Below, piece by piece: positions 39,388 through 64,000 of a stretch of 64,000 nucleotides of DNA; the stretch's first letter is position 1; every line of letters starts with the position of its first letter. Source of the DNA: Ferruginibacter sp. (GTDB lineage: Bacteria > Bacteroidota > Bacteroidia > Chitinophagales > Chitinophagaceae); assembly GCA_025362235.1 (NCBI GenBank), contig JANYGZ010000016.1, positions 186,001-250,000 of the forward strand. The letters run 5' to 3'. The notes beneath the pieces were generated by a model. That model had not been told where the DNA came from. It was given only the letters and a program-made list of their open reading frames with translations, and searched no databases. The position numbers were made by a program, and so were the translations under genes.

Positions 39388-40098
39388 ATGAAAATTATCT
39401 CGATTGTTTCACTGTATTTTTTTTGCAGCGCTGCCAGTTTAATTCAACCAAAGAATGTAAAAGTGAACACTATTGCTACTGACCATGATGGATGGCAAAT
39501 ATTGTTTGATGGAAAAACAACCAAAGGCTGGCATACTTATGGCAAAACTGCCGTGAATGAAAGATGGAAAATTTCAGATGGTGCTTTGTATATTGACAAC
39601 ACTGTTAAGGAAGGCGGGGATATAGTGACGGATGAAGAATTTGAAAATTATGATTTGAAACTGGAATGGAAGATTTCTAAAAATGGCAATAGCGGCATCA
39701 TCATAAACATCAATGAAGACACTGTAAAATATAAAGAAACCTATAGATCCGGCCCTGAAATACAGGTACTGGATAATGATGGCCATCCTGACGGAAAAAT
39801 TTTAAAACACCGTGCAGGTGATTTATACGACCTTATAAAAAGTTCTTCAGAACCTGTTAAGGCTGTTGGCGAATGGAATGCCGTAGAAATTATAAGTGAC
39901 AAGGGTAGTTTAAAAATATTTATGAACGGCACCAACGTGGTTACAACCACCATGTGGGACAATAACTGGAAACAACTGATAGCCGGAAGTAAATTTAAAG
40001 ATATGCCTGGTTTTGGAACTTTTAAAAAGGGGAAAATAGCATTACAGGATCATGGAAATGCTGTTTGGTATCGTAATATCAAAATTAAAAAATTATAA
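39388..40098 (+). CDS. DUF1080 (3-keto-disaccharide hydrolase family) protein, copy 1
   Basis: WQILFDGKTTKGWHTYG; YDLKLEWKISKNGNSGIIININ; AVWYRNIKIKKL. Confidence 0.9.
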   Translation: MKIISIVSLYFFCSAASLIQPKNVKVNTIATDHDGWQILFDGKTTKGWHTYGKTAVNERWKISDGALYIDNTVKEGGDIVTDEEFENYDLKLEWKISKNGNSGIIININEDTVKYKETYRSGPEIQVLDNDGHPDGKILKHRAGDLYDLIKSSSEPVKAVGEWNAVEIISDKGSLKIFMNGTNVVTTTMWDNNWKQLIAGSKFKDMPGFGTFKKGKIALQDHGNAVWYRNIKIKKL

Positions 40099-40108
40099 AA
40101 TAAATACG

Positions 40109-40861
40109 ATGCCAGCTTTTTCATTTACAAAAAATATATTGTTAGCAGTAGTTTTTATTGCGGGTGTTTCTTTTACAGGCAGCCAAAAAGAATCAACTCA
40201 GTTTAAAAAAAATAAAGTACTTATTTTTTCAAAAACAAATGGCTACCGGCATCAAAGTATTGAAGTAGGTATTGCTGCAATAAAAAAATTAGGAGCCGAA
40301 AATAATTTTGATGTTGAAGCAACAGAAGACTCTCTTTATTTAACAGATGCCAATTTTAAAAACTACAAGACCATTATTTTTTTAAGTACCACCGGAACAA
40401 TTTTGGGTAAAGACCAGGAATTGGCGCTGCAGAATTTTATACACAATGGCGGTGGCCTTGTAGGTATACATGCTGCAACAGATTGTGAGTATCAATGGGA
40501 CTGGTATGTAAAAATGATAGGGGGCAATTTTTTATCTCACCCACAGCAACAGGAAGCTAAATTAATAATAGTTGACAATACACATCCATCAACAAAACAC
40601 CTGCCTGCTACCTGGCAAAGAAAAGATGAATGGTATAATTTTAAGAACCTGAACCCAGATTTAACTGTTTTAATAAAGATAGATGAAACATCATATACTG
40701 GTGGTGCAAATGGCAATAATCACCCGATGGCATGGTACCATAGCTTCGAAGGCGGAAAGATATTTTATACAGAACTGGGACATACAAATGAATCTTACAG
40801 CGACCCGCTTTTTTTACAACATGTGCTGGGTGGCATCCAATATACAATGGGCGTAAAATAA
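40109..40861 (+). CDS. ThuA domain-containing protein
   Basis: KVLIFSKTNGYRHQSIEVG; GGGLVGIHAATDCEYQWDWYVKMIGG; MAWYHSFEGGKIFYTELGHTNESY; likely start 40109. Confidence 0.9.
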   Translation: MPAFSFTKNILLAVVFIAGVSFTGSQKESTQFKKNKVLIFSKTNGYRHQSIEVGIAAIKKLGAENNFDVEATEDSLYLTDANFKNYKTIIFLSTTGTILGKDQELALQNFIHNGGGLVGIHAATDCEYQWDWYVKMIGGNFLSHPQQQEAKLIIVDNTHPSTKHLPATWQRKDEWYNFKNLNPDLTVLIKIDETSYTGGANGNNHPMAWYHSFEGGKIFYTELGHTNESYSDPLFLQHVLGGIQYTMGVK

Positions 40862-52259: not shown

Positions 52260-55054
52260 TTGAAAAACGAAAAACTGACACGGAAAGAAATCATCGACAC
52301 CCGACTTAAACAAGCCGGTTGGGATGTTAATGACCGGACTCAGATTGTTGAGGAGTTTGATATAATTGTTGACATAAATCTAGTTCAAGAAGCTGCGACA
52401 CCCTACGGTGGTAGGCAATTCAGCGATTATGTTTTATTAGCCAAAGACGGAAAACCTCTAGCGGTTGTTGAAGCAAAAAAATCTACAGTCGATGCTAATA
52501 TTGGAAAAGAACAAGCAAAGCAATACTGTTTCAATATTCAAAAACAATTTGGAGGCGAACTTCCTTTTTGCTTTTATACAAACGGACACGACATTTTCTT
52601 TTGGGACTTAGATAACTACCCACCTAAAAAAGTTTATGGTTTTCCAACACGGGACGACCTTGAACGATATACATACATACGACAAAAACGAAAATCACTT
52701 TCAGGCGAATTCATAAACACAAAGATTGCAGGAAGAGATTATCAGATTGGTGCTATACGTGCAGTTTTAGAGGCAGTTGAAAAAAGAAAAAGAAGATTTT
52801 TGTTGGTTATGCTACCGGAACTGGTAAGACCCGTACTTGTATCGCTTTAGTTGATGCCTTAATGCGGACTGGCTGGGCAGAAAGAGTTTTGTTTTTAGTA
52901 GACAGGATTGCATTGCGTGACCAAACTCTTGATGCATTCAAAGAACATTTACCAAATGAGCCACGATGGCCTAAGCAAGCGGAAAAGGAAATTGCGAAGG
53001 ATAGAAGAATTTATGTTTCCACTTATCCAACAATGTTGAATGTAATTCGCAATGAAGAAAAAACATTAAGCCCACATTTCTTTGATTTGGTAGTAGTGGA
53101 CGAAAGTCATAGGAGTATTTATAACACCTATCAGGAAGTTTTAGATTATTTCAACACGATTACACTTGGCTTAACCGCAACGCCAACAGATGTAATTGAC
53201 CACAATACATTTCAACTATTTGAAACAGAAAATGGCGTTCCTACTTACGCTTACTCGTATGACGAAGCAGTAAATCATATTCCACCATACTTGTGCAATT
53301 TTCAGGTAATGAAAATTAAAACCAAGTTTCAAACAGAAGGAATTAGTAAAAGAACAATTGCTCTTGAAGACCAAAAGAAACTAATACTTGAAGGAAAAGA
53401 AATTGAAGAAATAAATTATGAAGGCACAGAATTAGAGAAGAAAGTCATCAACAAAGGTACTAATGCTTTGATAGTTCGTGAGTTCATGGAAGAAAGCATA
53501 AAAGATGCCAATGGTGTTTTGCCAGGCAAAACAATTTTCTTTTGTGCCACCAAAGCACATGCAAGACGCATGGAAGAAATATTCGATTCTTTGTATCCCG
53601 AGTATAAAGGCGAATTAGCAAAAGTATTGGTAAGCGAAGACCCAAGAGTTTATGGTAAAGGTGGGTTGCTTGACCAATTCACAAATAACAACATGCCACG
53701 AATTGCTTTAAGTGTAGATATGTTAGATACTGGTATTGATGTAAGAGAATTGGTAAATCTTGTTTTTGCAAAACCTGTTTACAGTTACACTAAGTTTTGG
53801 CAGATGATAGGTAGAGGAACCAGATTGCTGGAGCCTGAAAAAATAAAGCCCTGGTGTACTGAAAAAGATGGCTTTCTGATTTTAGATTGTTGGGATAATT
53901 TTGAATACTTCAAATTAAATCCCAGGGGTAAAGAACTAAAAAGCCAAATCCCTTTGCCAGTCCGTTTATTTGGTGTTCGTTTAGAAAAAATTGAAAAAGC
54001 AATTGAGTTAAATGAAACAGGAATTACTACCAAAGAAATTAAAAAACTGCGACAACAAATTACTACGCTTCCACAAAACTCAATTGTAATTTTAGATGCT
54101 AAACACGAATTACAGAGAGTAGAAGATGAAAACTTCTGGAATCATTTATCGGCTGACAAAATCGAATTTTTAAAGGCAGTTGTAAAACCATTATTCAGAA
54201 CTGTTTCTGATACTGATTTCAAAGCAATGCGGTTTGAAAAAGATATCGTGGAAGTTTCGCTTGCTAAACTATCAGCTGAAAAAGTAAAATTTGAAACACT
54301 TAAAGACAGCATCGTTGAAGAAATTGCTGAGTTGCCTTTGTCTGTAAACATCATTGCTAAAGAAGGTGAACTTATCAGGCAATCACAAGCAAATCATTAT
54401 TGGTCAACAATTACAGAAGAAAAACTGGATGAACTGATTGAAAAAATTGCTCCTTTAATGCGATTTAGAGAAGCCATTGTACCGCTTGGCCCTGCTAAAT
54501 TTAATTTTAAAGATTTGATAGTTGAAAAAGAATATGTGGAATTTGGCCCACAACACGAAGCATTGAGCATTGCCAAATACCGGGAGTTAGTGGAGCTGAA
54601 AGTAAATGAACTACTAACAGGTAATGCGCTGCTGCAAAAAATAAAAGAAGGAAAAGAAATTACCCCCTCCGAAGCGGAACAACTGGCAGAAGAGTTACAC
54701 AATGAACATCCACATATCACCATTGATTTATTGCGGAGAGTGTACAACCATCGCAAAGCCCAATTGGTACAGTTTATAAAACATATCCTGGGTATTGAAA
54801 TATTAGAATCATTCAATGAAACCGTTTCAAAGGCATTTGATGAATTTATTTCAAAACACAGTTACTTAAGCAGCCGCCAGTTGCAGTTTATGGATTTATT
54901 GCGCAATTTTATTGTAGAAAAAGGCGAATTGCAAAAACGGAATTTAATTGAATCTCCTTTTACTTTAATTCATCCGCAAGGTATCAGGGGCGTTTTTAGT
55001 ACTGCGGAAATTGAGGAGATATTGGTGTTTACAGAAAAGTTGACGGCAGCGTAA
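52260..55054 (+). pseudogene. hsdR: Type I restriction endonuclease R subunit, single frameshift at Walker A
   Basis: ORF 52260-52850 (HsdR_N, SDYVLLAKDGKPLAVVEAKK) and ORF 52862-55054 (LVVVDESHRSI, TATPTDVIDHNT, MIGRGTRLL). Restoring one G at about 52811 (atg-ct to atg-gct) reads FLLVMATGTGKTRTCIALVDALMRTGW. Confidence 0.9.
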
Positions 55055-55060
55055 TAATAA

Positions 55061-55088
55061 TTAAACACATCGAATTCGATGTGTTTAA
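55061..55088. repeat. Perfect 28-bp palindrome TTAAACACATCGAATTCGATGTGTTTAA
   Basis: Sequence equals its own reverse complement; sits between hsdR stop and the KilA-N gene. Confidence 0.9.
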
Positions 55089-55121
55089 AGGTAACGGATT
55101 CGACACCTTTAAAAAAAAGAA

Positions 55122-55940
55122 ATGAGTAAGAGCAAAATAGTTAATGTAAAAGGAACAAAAGTTACCATCATTGCTGAAGGTGAAAATGATTTTATCAGTT
55201 TAACAGATATGACTGCCAGTTTCATTGAAGGTAGTGGATTAATTGGTAAATGGATTACAACTAAAAACACTCTTGAGTATCTTGCTATTTGGGAATCTAT
55301 AAACAATCCAAACTTCAATTACCCCGAATTCGGGGTAATTGAAAAAGAAGCGGGTGTAAACAGATTCATTATGTCTGTAGGGCAATGGATAAGCAGAACA
55401 AGTGCAAATGGATTAATTGTTAAAGCGGGTAGATTTGGAGGCACTTATGCTCATAAAGATATTGTGTTTCATTTTGCTATGTGGCTAAGTCCTGAGTTTC
55501 AGATTTACTTAATTAGAGAAATCCAACGCCTTAAATCGGATGAAAATGACCGCCTAAAATTGAACTGGAACCTGCAACGCACTTTGGCCAAAGTTAATTA
55601 CCATATTCATACAGATGCTATCAAAGAAAACTTAATTCCTAAAGAATTAAATAAGCAACAGGTAAACTATGTATATGCAAACGAAGCAGACTTATTAAAT
55701 GTTGCCTTGTTTGGAATTACAGCAAAACAATGGCGTGATGCTAACCCTAAAGCGACAGGTAATATCAGGGATGAAGCTACAATTGAACAATTAGTCGTAC
55801 TCTCCAATCTCGAAAGCATCAATGCCGTTTTAATACACCAGGGGTTGCAGCAGGGCGAAAGGCTTTTGCAACTCAATAAAATTGCCATCACACAAATGAA
55901 ATCATTGGTAAACAACAGCCAGCTAAAAAAATTAAAATAA
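55122..55940 (+). CDS. KilA-N domain-containing protein
   Basis: DFISLTDMTASF...LIGKWITTKNTLEYLAIWESINNPNFN; GRFGGTYAHKDIVFHFAMWLSPEFQIYLIREIQRLK. Confidence 0.9.
   Translation: MSKSKIVNVKGTKVTIIAEGENDFISLTDMTASFIEGSGLIGKWITTKNTLEYLAIWESINNPNFNYPEFGVIEKEAGVNRFIMSVGQWISRTSANGLIVKAGRFGGTYAHKDIVFHFAMWLSPEFQIYLIREIQRLKSDENDRLKLNWNLQRTLAKVNYHIHTDAIKENLIPKELNKQQVNYVYANEADLLNVALFGITAKQWRDANPKATGNIRDEATIEQLVVLSNLESINAVLIHQGLQQGERLLQLNKIAITQMKSLVNNSQLKKLK
55314..55343. repeat. Perfect 30-bp palindrome inside the KilA-N CDS (TTCAATTACCCCGAATTCGGGGTAATTGAA)
   Basis: Sequence equals its own reverse complement; encodes NYPEFGVIE. Confidence 0.9.
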
Positions 55941-55941
55941 A

Positions 55942-56518
55942 GTCTGAACTATGATTTTTGTGATTAAATGATTACCATGATTACAAATTAATTTTAGTTC
56001 ACTATCAAATTATAACATTCAAATCACACCAATCAAAAAAATCAAGCAAATCATAGTTAAGATATGATTAACGAACGATACAAATATTCTGAATTAACAT
56101 CTAAAATAATTGGCTGTGCTATAGAAGTGCATAAGAGGCTTGGTAATGGTTTTCAGGAAGTAATTTATCAAAGAGCTTTAGCAATAGAATTACAATTAGC
56201 CGCTATCGCTTTTCAAAAAGAATTTGAAATGCCCATATTTTACAGGGATGAACACATTGGAACAAGAAGAGTAGATTTTTTAGTAGAAGGGATTATCTCT
56301 GTTGAATTAAAAGCAATCTCAAAATTAGAAGATGTTCATTTTGCCCAGGCCATTAATTATTTAGAAGCCTATAATGTAGAAATAGGCCTGCTAATAAACT
56401 TTGGCGAAAACAGCCTTATTTTTAAAAGACTAACCAACAAAAAATTTAAACCACCACCAACCAACAAGCCCTAAAAAATCATATCAATCACAACAATCAA
56501 AAAAATCATAGTTCAGAC
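55942..56518. mobile_element. Inverted-repeat-bounded cassette carrying a GxxExxY gene
   Basis: Perfect 18-bp terminal inverted repeats GTCTGAACTATGATTTTT (55942-55959) and AAAAATCATAGTTCAGAC (56501-56518); extra internal copy AAATCATAGTT at 56048-56058. Confidence 0.6.
56064..56474 (+). CDS. GxxExxY protein (PD-(D/E)XK_3-like)
   Basis: GNGFQEVIY matches GxxExxY; RRVDFLVEGIISVELKA matches the D...ExK nuclease-fold pattern. Confidence 0.9.
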   Translation: MINERYKYSELTSKIIGCAIEVHKRLGNGFQEVIYQRALAIELQLAAIAFQKEFEMPIFYRDEHIGTRRVDFLVEGIISVELKAISKLEDVHFAQAINYLEAYNVEIGLLINFGENSLIFKRLTNKKFKPPPTNKP

Positions 56519-56521
56519 AAC

Positions 56522-58102
56522 ATGCTCAACCCAACAATAAAATCAAAAGTAGATGCCCTGTGGGATAAGTTTTGGAGTGGCGGTATCAGCAACCCTCTCA
56601 ACGCCATTGAGCAAATTACTTACCTGCTTTTTATAAAACAGTTAGACGAAAACGATGCAGCCGAAATTCGCAATGCCGAATTTACAGGAGATACTTACAA
56701 ATCTATATTTAAAGGGATTTATTTTCCGCCGGGTGTAGATAAAACCATTAAAACAAATGGCGTTAAAAAAGAAGACCTGCGCTGGAGTGCCGTTAACCAC
56801 GGGCCTACCGATGTAATTTTTCAAAGAATGCAAAGCCAGGTTTTTCCTTTTATAAAAGAACTGGGCGAAGCAGGCTCTTCATTTGCCCGGCACATGCAAA
56901 ATGCCGTATTCTTAATTCCCAAGCCTTCTTTGTTAAAGGAAGCCATGGATACTATTGACCAGTTGTACGATGAAATAAGTAAGGAAGACCGCTTTACCAA
57001 TACGCAGGGCGATGTGTACGAATACCTGCTGAGCCAGTTGAACCAGGCCGGCAAAAACGGCCAGTTTAGAACACCGGGGCATATTATAGAAATGATGGTA
57101 GAGCTGGTAGAACCCAAACTTGGCGAACGCATTGCCGACCCGGCCTGTGGCACATCGGGTTTTTTATTGGCGAGCCTGCTGTACATTAATACCCAGTTTA
57201 CCAGCAAAAAATACCAGCAGCAGGATGAGAATGGTTTTATGAGAGGCACCATGGCTGATAAACTGGTAAAAGATACTGCCAAAGAAATTTTGCAAACCGA
57301 TACTTTTTATGGGTTTGATATAGACCCTACCATGATACGCCTTGGGCTGATGAACCTAATGATGCATGGCATTAAAAACCCAAAAATTGAGTACACCGAT
57401 ACACTCAGTAAATTTTATAACGAGGAAAACCTGTACCACAAAGTATTAGCCAACCCACCCTTTACCGGCAGTATAGACAAAGGCGAACTGAATACCAGCT
57501 TTAGCATTAGCACCACCAAAAGCGAATTACTTTTTGTAGAACGTATTTATAAAATGCTGCGCATGGGTGGCACCGCCGCAGTGGTAGTGCCGCAAGGTGT
57601 ATTGTTTGGCAGCGGCAATGCCTTTAAAGATTTGCGAAAACTGATTATAGACAATTGCGAACTGCAGGCTGTAATAAGTATGCCCAGCGGGGTTTTTAAA
57701 CCTTATGCAGGCGTGGCCACCGCTATATTGATATTTACCAAAGGTGGCAGCACAGAACAAGTTTGGTTTTACGAAATGCAAAGCGATGGCAAAAGCCTGG
57801 ATGATAAACGCAACGAGCTGTTTTTATCGGATGGCAAACGGGACTTTGGCGACTTGCATAAAATAGTAACCGTCTTTAAGGCAAAACATACCCCAAAAGC
57901 AAACGACCGCAAACTGCAATACTTCTTTGTGCCTAAAAAAGAAATAGAAGAAAACGGCTACGATCTTAGCCTGAGTAAATACAAAGAAGAAGTGTATGAA
58001 GAAGTGCTGTACAAAGAGCCAACTGCGATTTTTGAAAAACTAAAAGCGCTGGAGAATGAAATACAAATTGGATTGAATGAACTTAAAAAGTTGGTGGTAT
58101 GA
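56522..58102 (+). CDS. hsdM: Type I restriction-modification DNA methyltransferase subunit M
   Basis: GQFRTPGHIIEMMVELVEPKLGERIADPACGTSGFLLA; VLANPPFTGSID (NPPF motif). Confidence 0.95.
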   Translation: MLNPTIKSKVDALWDKFWSGGISNPLNAIEQITYLLFIKQLDENDAAEIRNAEFTGDTYKSIFKGIYFPPGVDKTIKTNGVKKEDLRWSAVNHGPTDVIFQRMQSQVFPFIKELGEAGSSFARHMQNAVFLIPKPSLLKEAMDTIDQLYDEISKEDRFTNTQGDVYEYLLSQLNQAGKNGQFRTPGHIIEMMVELVEPKLGERIADPACGTSGFLLASLLYINTQFTSKKYQQQDENGFMRGTMADKLVKDTAKEILQTDTFYGFDIDPTMIRLGLMNLMMHGIKNPKIEYTDTLSKFYNEENLYHKVLANPPFTGSIDKGELNTSFSISTTKSELLFVERIYKMLRMGGTAAVVVPQGVLFGSGNAFKDLRKLIIDNCELQAVISMPSGVFKPYAGVATAILIFTKGGSTEQVWFYEMQSDGKSLDDKRNELFLSDGKRDFGDLHKIVTVFKAKHTPKANDRKLQYFFVPKKEIEENGYDLSLSKYKEEVYEEVLYKEPTAIFEKLKALENEIQIGLNELKKLVV

Positions 58103-59379
58103 GGTTAGTGAAATTAGAAGACATAATCAAAATTCAAATTGGGAAAACGCCACAAAGAGATACTAAAGAATATTGGGGTGAGGGTTATCCATGGGTGAGT
58201 ATTGCAGATTTAAAAACAAGAACAATCTTAAAAACTAAAGAGCAAATTACCAAATTAGCTGTAAACGAATGTGGTTGTAAATTAATACCAAAAGGAACGC
58301 TGTTAATGAGTTTTAAATTAAGTATTGGCAAGTTGGCATTTGCAGGAATGGATTTATTTACTAATGAAGCAATTTGTGGTTTAACGATTCTTAATAAACA
58401 TAAAGTCTATCCAGATTTTTTATTTTACGCTTTAAAGAATACAAACTTACTGGGTTCTAATGTTGCTGTAATGGGAGCTACATTAAATACGAAGTCGTTA
58501 AACGAACTTAAAATACCAATCCCCGAAACCCTCGCCAAACAAATACAAATAGCTACCATACTCGGCCAGGCCGAAAAGCTAATAGCCCAGCGCAAACAAA
58601 GCATTGCCCTGCTGGATGAATTTTTGAAAAGTACTTTTTTGGAGATGTTTGGAGACCCGGTTAGGAATGAGAAGGGATGGGAGAAAGTTATATTAGAAAA
58701 TGTTATTGATGATATTATTGCAGGTTCAAGTTATGGTGGAGAAATGAAAGGCTTTTTAGAAGAAAATGAATTAGGTGTTTTAAAAACTAGTGCAGTTACG
58801 TGGGGTACTTTTAATCCAAATGAATACAAGGCTGTTCAAAAAAAATTAATTACAAAAAAACTTATTCATCCAAAAAAAGGAGACTTGCTTTTCAGCAGAG
58901 CGAATACCAGAGAATTGGTTGGGGCTACTTGCATAGTGTTGGATGATTTTCCAAATTTATTTCTTCCAGATAAAATTTGGAAAATTCAATTGGTAAAAGA
59001 AAAAATTATCCAATATTATTTGCATTATTTATTACAAGATAAAAGTTTTAAAACTACACTAACTAATGATGCAACAGGCTCACATGGTTCAATGTTGAAT
59101 ATTTCGATGAGTACTTTACGACTGTTAATTTGCCCCCTTCCTCCACTCGAACTTCAAACCCAATTTGCCCAAGTAGTAGAAAAAACAGAAGCACTCAAAA
59201 CCCAATACAAAGCCAGTTTGCAGGAGTTGGAAAATCTCTTTGGCAGCCATAGCCAGAAAGCATTTAAAGGTGAGTTGGTAATGCCAAAGGTTTATGCAAT
59301 AGATGAGCCTGCGCTATCAGTAGCGGCAGAGCCAGAGCCGGAGTATGGTAAAGCAAGAAAGAAAAAATTGGAATATTGA
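58099..59379 (+). CDS. hsdS: Type I restriction-modification specificity subunit S
   Basis: Two target-recognition halves separated by helical repeats (QIQIATILGQAEKLIAQRKQSIALLDEFLKSTFLEMFGDP); 4-bp overlap with hsdM. Confidence 0.9.
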   Translation: MRLVKLEDIIKIQIGKTPQRDTKEYWGEGYPWVSIADLKTRTILKTKEQITKLAVNECGCKLIPKGTLLMSFKLSIGKLAFAGMDLFTNEAICGLTILNKHKVYPDFLFYALKNTNLLGSNVAVMGATLNTKSLNELKIPIPETLAKQIQIATILGQAEKLIAQRKQSIALLDEFLKSTFLEMFGDPVRNEKGWEKVILENVIDDIIAGSSYGGEMKGFLEENELGVLKTSAVTWGTFNPNEYKAVQKKLITKKLIHPKKGDLLFSRANTRELVGATCIVLDDFPNLFLPDKIWKIQLVKEKIIQYYLHYLLQDKSFKTTLTNDATGSHGSMLNISMSTLRLLICPLPPLELQTQFAQVVEKTEALKTQYKASLQELENLFGSHSQKAFKGELVMPKVYAIDEPALSVAAEPEPEYGKARKKKLEY

Positions 59380-63120: not shown

Positions 63121-64000
63121 ATGCGCATCTTCATCAGCCACATATCAGAAGAAGCACTTGAAGCAACAGCATTAAAAAAAGGCATCAAAAGTGCATTACC
63201 TGATGTAGAAGTATTTGTCAGTTCGGTAGATATAGAATTGGGCGACCCGTGGTTGACAAAGATTTTAAAAGAATTGGAAGAGGTAAAAGTAATATTGGCA
63301 TTGTGCAGTCCTGCTTCAGTCCGCAACCCTTGGATAAACTTTGAAATAGGAAGTGCTTATGCTAAAGGTGCACGTGTAGTACCAGTATGTTATAAAGGCC
63401 TAAATACGGATCAACTTCCCGATCCCCTGGCAATTTTTCAAACATTTGAACTTAAAAAGGCGACTTCCTTTCGTAATATGGTAGATTGGTTATCAACTTA
63501 CGTTGGAGTTAAAGTTGCAGAAAACTTTAATCCATTGGACGTAATGAATGCGCTCAACAAGGCTTCACAAAAAGAGACTGCTTCCAATACAACTGAAGTC
63601 GGCATTGTCCTGACGCACCGACAAGATCAATGGGAAAAAAACAGAAAATCGGTCTTTACATTACCTGACTCTTTACCAGAAACTCATAAAGACAAATGGA
63701 GCTTTCGATTGCTTGAAGACGAACGCACCTTTCTATCGAAAGATTTAAATGAACTTTCAGGGATTATCCTTGCAATACCATGGCATTCAAAAATGAGTCC
63801 CGAAACCATTCATACTTTGGTTGAATGGGTAAGATCGGGAGGGCGGATGTTGCTTCTTGGTTTTGAACTTGGTGACCGGCACCACAATAGTAATCTTTCA
63901 GAACTCAGCCATCATTTCGGTATAGACCCTACATCGGGAGATATAGTAGGCCCCCGGGGTAATACAAATAATGAAGATGCTGGATTTGGCATTCCTAAGC
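63121..64000 (+). CDS. TIR-domain protein with downstream GATase/ThuA-like domain, truncated by window end
   Basis: Hand-translated, 293 codons without stop: MRIFISHISEEALEATALKKGIKSALPDVEVFVSSVDIELGDPWLTKILKELEEVKVILALCSPASVRNPWINFEIGSAYAKGARVVPVCYKG (TIR_2-like, WINFE = WxxxE), then LSGIILAIPWHSKMSPETIHTLVEWVRSGGRMLLLGFELGD. Confidence 0.8.
   Translation, partial: MRIFISHISEEALEATALKKGIKSALPDVEVFVSSVDIELGDPWLTKILKELEEVKVILALCSPASVRNPWINFEIGSAYAKGARVVPVCYKGLNTDQLPDPLAIFQTFELKKATSFRNMVDWLSTYVGVKVAENFNPLDVMNALNKASQKETASNTTEVGIVLTHRQDQWEKNRKSVFTLPDSLPETHKDKWSFRLLEDERTFLSKDLNELSGIILAIPWHSKMSPETIHTLVEWVRSGGRMLLLGFELGDRHHNSNLSELSHHFGIDPTSGDIVGPRGNTNNEDAGFGIPK

Follow-up and report, generated by a model that had tools for sequence, protein, structure and literature searches.

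Here, we provide evidence that a solitary gene of Ferruginibacter sp. joins an N-terminal TIR domain to a C-terminal GATase-like domain, and that a second, distant genome of the phylum carries this C-terminal domain on an unrelated effector, an alpha/beta-hydrolase resembling LmuA of Lamassu. What the analysis shows is the two-domain composition, the fold of the TIR, the conserved motifs, the gene's solitary position and the exchange of the TIR for an LmuA-like hydrolase; NADase activity, sensing and an anti-phage role are inferred. By analogy with known systems, we somewhat favor an abortive-infection protein encoded by a single gene, in which the GATase-like domain would act as a sensing or oligomerization module for the TIR.

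Extent of the gene

An ATG at position 63121 of the window (the whole 64,000-nucleotide stretch of DNA analyzed here) opens a plus-strand frame that is stop-free through position 64000, the window end, as a sequence-only reading of this DNA had described. That reading had also proposed extending the frame beyond 64000, and completing the gene from its own contig (267,398 bp) gave a protein of 424 residues with its stop codon at window-equivalent positions 64393 to 64395, 395 bp beyond the window (Table 1). Flanking DNA holds no other open frame of at least 80 codons for about 420 bp upstream or about 345 bp downstream, and the gene is therefore solitary. Its G+C content differs from that of the window (39.6% vs 36.5%), which says little. 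Chance fusion or an assembly artefact, leaving the two halves with no functional unity, is very improbable: the exact TIR-GATase pair was found in one genome only, but the frame is single and unbroken within a 267-kb contig, and a distant genome preserves the C-terminal domain, at full length, in a fusion with another effector.

Table 1. Features of the TIR-GATase-like gene, in window coordinates (window-equivalent beyond position 64000)
Feature	Position	Strand	Basis
TIR-GATase-like gene	63121..64000, on to 64395 (window-equivalent)	+	Complete ORF, 424 aa
TIR_2 domain, residues 3-113	63127..63459	+	Pfam PF13676, AlphaFold2 model, Foldseek
WINFE motif, W71 to E75, WxxxE with presumed catalytic Glu	63331..63345	+	Position; invariant in TIR alignments
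TIR tail and helical linker, residues about 114-154 (approximate limits)	63460..63582	+	Helices 114-128 and 138-149 in model
GATase-like (DUF4350/GIFT-type) domain, residues ~155-424	63583..64000, on to 64392	+	Common to L006 fusion; profile-profile matches
H166-x-Q168-x-x-W171, after presumed first strand of GATase-like domain	63616..63633	+	H, Q and W identical in L006
D252-x-H254-H255-x-x-N258-x-S260 loop, candidate ligand or metal site	63874..63900	+	Identical in L006

The N-terminal half resembles NADase TIR domains

The first ~110 residues had been read as a bacterial TIR_2 domain, an assignment borne out by a match of residues 3 to 113 to PF13676 (5e-13; 50 bits against a curated cut-off of 28) and by a confident AlphaFold2 model of residues 1 to 150 (mean pLDDT 92.4), for which the input was an alignment with six viral-contig relatives. 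When this model was compared with solved structures by Foldseek, the matches were TIRs of the NADase type, including several found in defence proteins, and comprised SPARTA TIR-APAZ (2e-7 to 1e-6), human SARM1 (2e-6) and SpbK (PDB 9phb; 3e-5, TM 0.75), with AbTir also among them. The WxxxE catalytic-Glu pattern noticed earlier lies in WINFE, where W71 and E75 are unchanged across relatives in both TIR alignments made; loss of the catalytic glutamate had been named as grounds for abandoning the interpretation, and E75 is both present and invariant. Sequence and model together point to an NADase effector, predicted to cleave NAD+.

The closest TIR sequences found belong to prophage-borne single TIR genes, with 31-42% identity over the domain. 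Lone TIR genes in L059, L063, L066 and L067, which end in a short tail of unrelated sequence, are located in prophages or viral contigs, and terminase or tail-type genes adjoin those in L059, L063 and L066. A position beside prophage terminase or tail genes is a usual site of cargo defence genes. The Ferruginibacter genome itself has seven TIR_2 matches in all, in varied architectures: one contig (C20, 377-8325; L070 and L071) carries a TIR followed by TPR-like repeats and an apparent SIR2-like region followed by a TIR, and other TIR genes have macro-like or WD40-like parts (names given by eye, except TIR_2).

A GATase-like C-terminal half of the DUF4350/GIFT kind

No Pfam family reaches its cut-off over residues ~155 to 424, where weak matches were found to IFT52_GIFT, DUF2194 and DUF4350 (PF14258), the last at 16.7 bits against a curated cut-off of 30.4. 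Searching the PDB with a two-sequence profile also gave weak matches, to a beta-galactosidase (0.012) and to IFT52 (0.04-0.07); the matched part of that beta-galactosidase is presumably its trimerization domain, a GATase-like scaffold. In profile-profile comparison, hhalign returned a probability of 96.3% over 148 columns against a first DUF4350-type set (A2) and 97.5% over 86 columns against a second (A3), with the query profile made of two sequences and the E-values correspondingly rough. Because of these profile-profile matches, and because members of the comparison sets match PF14258 above its cut-off, we assign the C-terminal ~270 residues to a GATase-like domain of the DUF4350/IFT52-GIFT kind. 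Related GIFT domains occur in other contexts in IFT52, OST48 and GldG. A single-sequence AlphaFold prediction of the whole protein had a pLDDT of 34.

Of the GATase/ThuA-type domain proposed earlier, the GATase-like part holds, in the form of a DUF4350/GIFT/beta-galactosidase-trimerization kind of domain, and the ThuA part proved too specific, there being no match to PF06283 even though a true ThuA-domain protein in the same window (40052-40861) scores 2e-79 with that family. The latter protein sits in a sugar-metabolism-like neighborhood unrelated to the TIR gene. An active class I glutamine amidotransferase was rejected as well. At the nucleophile-elbow position, which follows a G-G-x-hhhh strand, the query reads LLLGFELG and its homologue L006 (see below) reads FLMGYYAA, and the only cysteines of the query are residues 62, 90, 318, 343 and 385; because the elbow lacks a Cys, glutaminase chemistry is unlikely.

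The DUF4350-type examples that we examined are attached to GH105-, GDSL- or M14-like enzymes, or form separate proteins with a signal-like N-terminus. Such domains end several GDSL-esterase-like or GH105-like proteins of the phylum (L009, L012, L022, L024, L032, L047 and L048), and the aligned DUF4350-type set of GDSL-/GH105-like proteins shows a near-invariant GDPWxYNEY motif; to our knowledge, no role has been described.

The same domain is fused to an LmuA-like hydrolase

Among 399 genomes of the phylum, one full-length homologue of the C-terminal half was found (tblastn, 9.7e-9), in a protein here called L006 from a distant genome (G376). Pairwise blastp of the two C-terminal domains aligned the whole domain with 51.6 bits and 21% identity, against 23.9 bits for the best of 1,000 shuffled sequences, and the N-terminal halves of the two proteins are unrelated. 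That of L006 is an alpha/beta-hydrolase, PGAP1-like in Pfam (26.1 bits; cut-off 24.3), which matches the PADLOC LmuA model (PDLC03851) at 2.7e-15 and contains a serine-hydrolase elbow, CHSLGG, at residues 89-94 (HSLGG at residue 90). One plasmid relative of this hydrolase (L081) belongs to an operon annotated as ABC-three-component, alongside an LmuB-type ATPase, and another, from Sphingobium, is followed by AAA-type ATPase sequence. From these comparisons, one C-terminal domain is joined to two different types of effector, both used in defence, and the replacement of a TIR by a lipase-like enzyme on a common domain is a signature of modular prokaryotic immunity. A role for the TIR-GATase-like gene in defence is plausible, and gains support because the same C-terminal domain is fused to an LmuA-like hydrolase in L006.

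Two motifs, H-x-Q-x-x-W (H166/Q168/W171) and D-x-H-H-x-x-N-x-S (D252-S260), are identical in the query and L006; as the family comprises these two proteins, its set of conserved residues could shift with more members. As a DNA pattern, the D252-S260 segment was found, among 75 loci, only in those holding the query or L006 gene and was absent from the other 66. Conservation of these pocket-like motifs at 21% identity would also suit a C-terminal domain with catalytic activity of its own, perhaps as a metal-assisted hydrolase or transferase that employs the D-x-H-H loop on a product or substrate of the TIR, so that the reaction would be two-step and NAD-linked. We regard such an enzyme as improbable: L006 carries the domain on a lipase-like effector, which would make no NAD product, so chemistry coupled to a TIR would not be general, and the elbow position lacks a catalytic Cys.

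Another possibility is that the C-terminal domain is not a sensor and serves instead as a structural or oligomerization scaffold, or as the part to which a partner from another locus docks. The beta-galactosidase match, with its presumed trimerization scaffold, is in keeping with such a role. The variable C-terminal domains of LmuA effectors are thought to dock to the ATPase (PMC10586767), and the hydrolase of L006 is LmuA-like. However, neither genome has a gene for an ATPase or another partner next to the fusion gene, and the domain matches no ABC-3C C-terminal family in Pfam, unlike L081, where CTD9 is matched; on this evidence we consider scaffolding or docking unlikely, though well worth keeping in mind.

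Distribution and genomic neighborhood

The gene is accessory, as the full protein was found in its own genome only when 149 genomes of relatives were searched (one relative had a TIR-only match). Its C-terminal architecture was confined to the query and L006 across overlapping draws of more than 1,000 genomes, which cover a sampled part of one phylum, and is very rare within that sample. A two-row profile applied to the phylum, order, class and family draws returned no further member, and weak C-terminal matches in other genomes, where examined, were GH105-, GDSL-, M14- or lipoprotein-like DUF4350-type domains and were rejected as members; several further matches from the 399-genome search yielded only short frames on the plus strand. 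Pattern scans of genome contigs, run with either the complete protein or its C-terminal half, found none, nor did scans of viral contigs with the C-terminal half, its two-row alignment, a DUF4350-type alignment or a 57-base motif, and tblastn against plasmids and phages recovered TIR or hydrolase halves only, never the C-terminal domain. In the open-access literature, we found no description of a TIR domain paired with a GATase, ThuA or amidotransferase-like domain.

A type I RM cassette lies upstream (52260-59379). The sequence-only reading had noted its proximity, at 4 kb, to the TIR gene; the distance is about right, the specificity gene ending at 59379, 3.7 kb away, but it carries little weight because genes for a DUF1826 protein and, as named by eye, for a sigma-factor-like and a cupin-like product intervene, and because HsdR (52260-55054) is split by a frameshift at ~52.85 kb, near the ATP-binding motif, into frames of 196 and 730 aa. 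Either the RM system is dead or decayed, or the break is an assembly error. Between hsdR and hsdM, at 55122-56474, are a KilA-N-type gene, which matches PADLOC candidate PDC-S22 (2.4e-125), and a small GxxExxY-like gene. Nearness to the RM cassette is weak evidence for defence, and the surroundings of the TIR gene, which also include an FG-GAP protein gene, are no convincing defence island. At neither the query nor the L006 locus was a clear defence island or mobile element seen, and none of the partners ThsA, Argonaute, CD-NTase or LmuB lies beside either gene.

Such neighbors, sigma-factor-like, cupin-type, DUF1826 and FG-GAP, together with the varied architectures of the seven TIR domains in the genome, would fit a TIR protein of host signaling or stress regulation whose proximity to RM genes is coincidental. 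This non-immune role is hard to reconcile with the absence of the gene from almost all relatives, unlike a housekeeping regulator, and with the pairing of the C-terminal domain with a defence-type effector in L006, and we think it rather unlikely.

A proposed mechanism

TIR NADases act on clustering. In the abortive-infection reading that we favor, the N-terminal TIR would be the effector, cleaving NAD+ once clustered and leaving the cell starved or arrested. The GATase-like domain, which may have lost or may never have had glutaminase chemistry, would hold the TIRs apart at rest, until an infection-related ligand or phage protein bound its predicted pocket, marked by H166/Q168/W171 and D252/H254/H255/N258, and brought them together. 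The GATase-like domain would then be the constant sensing or assembling part and the head, TIR or hydrolase, the part that kills, a division of roles that we propose because of analogy with SpbK, with Lamassu effectors and with the principle of effector-associated domains (EADs). As a counterpoint, GATase-like domains elsewhere sit in secreted glycoside hydrolases or peptidases, which makes an architectural, non-sensing role possible.

We tentatively suggest that a GATase-like fold of the DUF4350/GIFT type may have been co-opted in prokaryotic immunity to sense infection or to act as a switch. The result would be a new system encoded by one gene, in which the effector, TIR or LmuA-like hydrolase, is exchangeable and the D-x-H-H-x-x-N pocket is conserved. 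The DUF4350/GIFT fold has so far been described in glycan enzymes, peptidases and ciliary proteins, and if the GATase-like half is the trigger, TIR NADases and lipase-type effectors would gain a new sensor fold beside the few domains known to switch them. The set of two proteins is small and testable, with two effectors, one common domain and few residues to mutate.

Comparison with known systems

The sequence-only reading had not recognized the domain pairing as a named defence system, and indeed no PADLOC, Pfam or NCBIfam model covers the whole pairing. Thoeris (ThsB) was rejected on a ThsB_TIR (PF08937) score of 17.6 bits, below the cut-off of 21.2, and on the lack of an adjacent ThsA-like gene; SPARTA, on the lack of an APAZ match in Pfam or PADLOC and of an Argonaute neighbor; and a CBASS TIR effector (TIR-SAVED or TIR-STING), on the lack of a SAVED or STING domain and of a CD-NTase neighbor. 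Membership of Lamassu/ABC-3C was rejected in the same way, there being no match to an ABC-3C C-terminal domain in Pfam and no adjacent LmuB-type ATPase, in contrast to L081, a real ABC-3C operon with its CTD9 match.

The prophage-borne single TIR genes (L063-L068 and relatives) are closest in their TIR and are likewise solitary cargo genes, but their C-terminal part is an unrelated tail of ~100 aa. On the side of the C-terminal half, DUF4350, IFT52-GIFT, OST48 and GldG are the same kind of domain by profile-profile comparison, with weak PDB matches to IFT52, whereas the DUF4350-type examples examined lack the D-x-H-H-x-x-N pattern and the query scores below the Pfam cut-off.

Lamassu offers a parallel in its use of alternative effectors on C-terminal domains: LmuA has exchangeable enzymatic heads, among which both TIR and alpha/beta-hydrolase are listed (PMC10586767), and L006 has a hydrolase of the LmuA type. 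The query and L006 differ in having no LmuB ATPase or middle component nearby, and in a C-terminal domain that is GATase-like and not of an ABC-3C family. A similar economy underlies the EAD principle of prokaryotic conflict systems, by which one associated domain serves several effectors, alpha/beta-hydrolase included (PMC8195603). Query and L006 share with it a single common domain on interchangeable effectors, an alpha/beta-hydrolase among them, though described EADs are small and non-catalytic and the domain here is GATase-like and ~270 residues long; GATase, ThuA, DUF4350 and amidotransferase are not mentioned in that account (PMC8195603).

SpbK, a TIR defence protein of Bacillus subtilis, resembles the query in being a single protein that combines an NADase-type TIR of similar fold with a second domain. 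It forms inactive dimers, and clustering activates its TIR once the other domain engages the phage portal (PMC12847820). The domain order is reversed, with the sensing domain of SpbK N-terminal, and no DUF4350 or GATase-like part is described for it. SpbK is nevertheless a precedent for sensing through one domain and clustering of the TIR through the other within a single protein.
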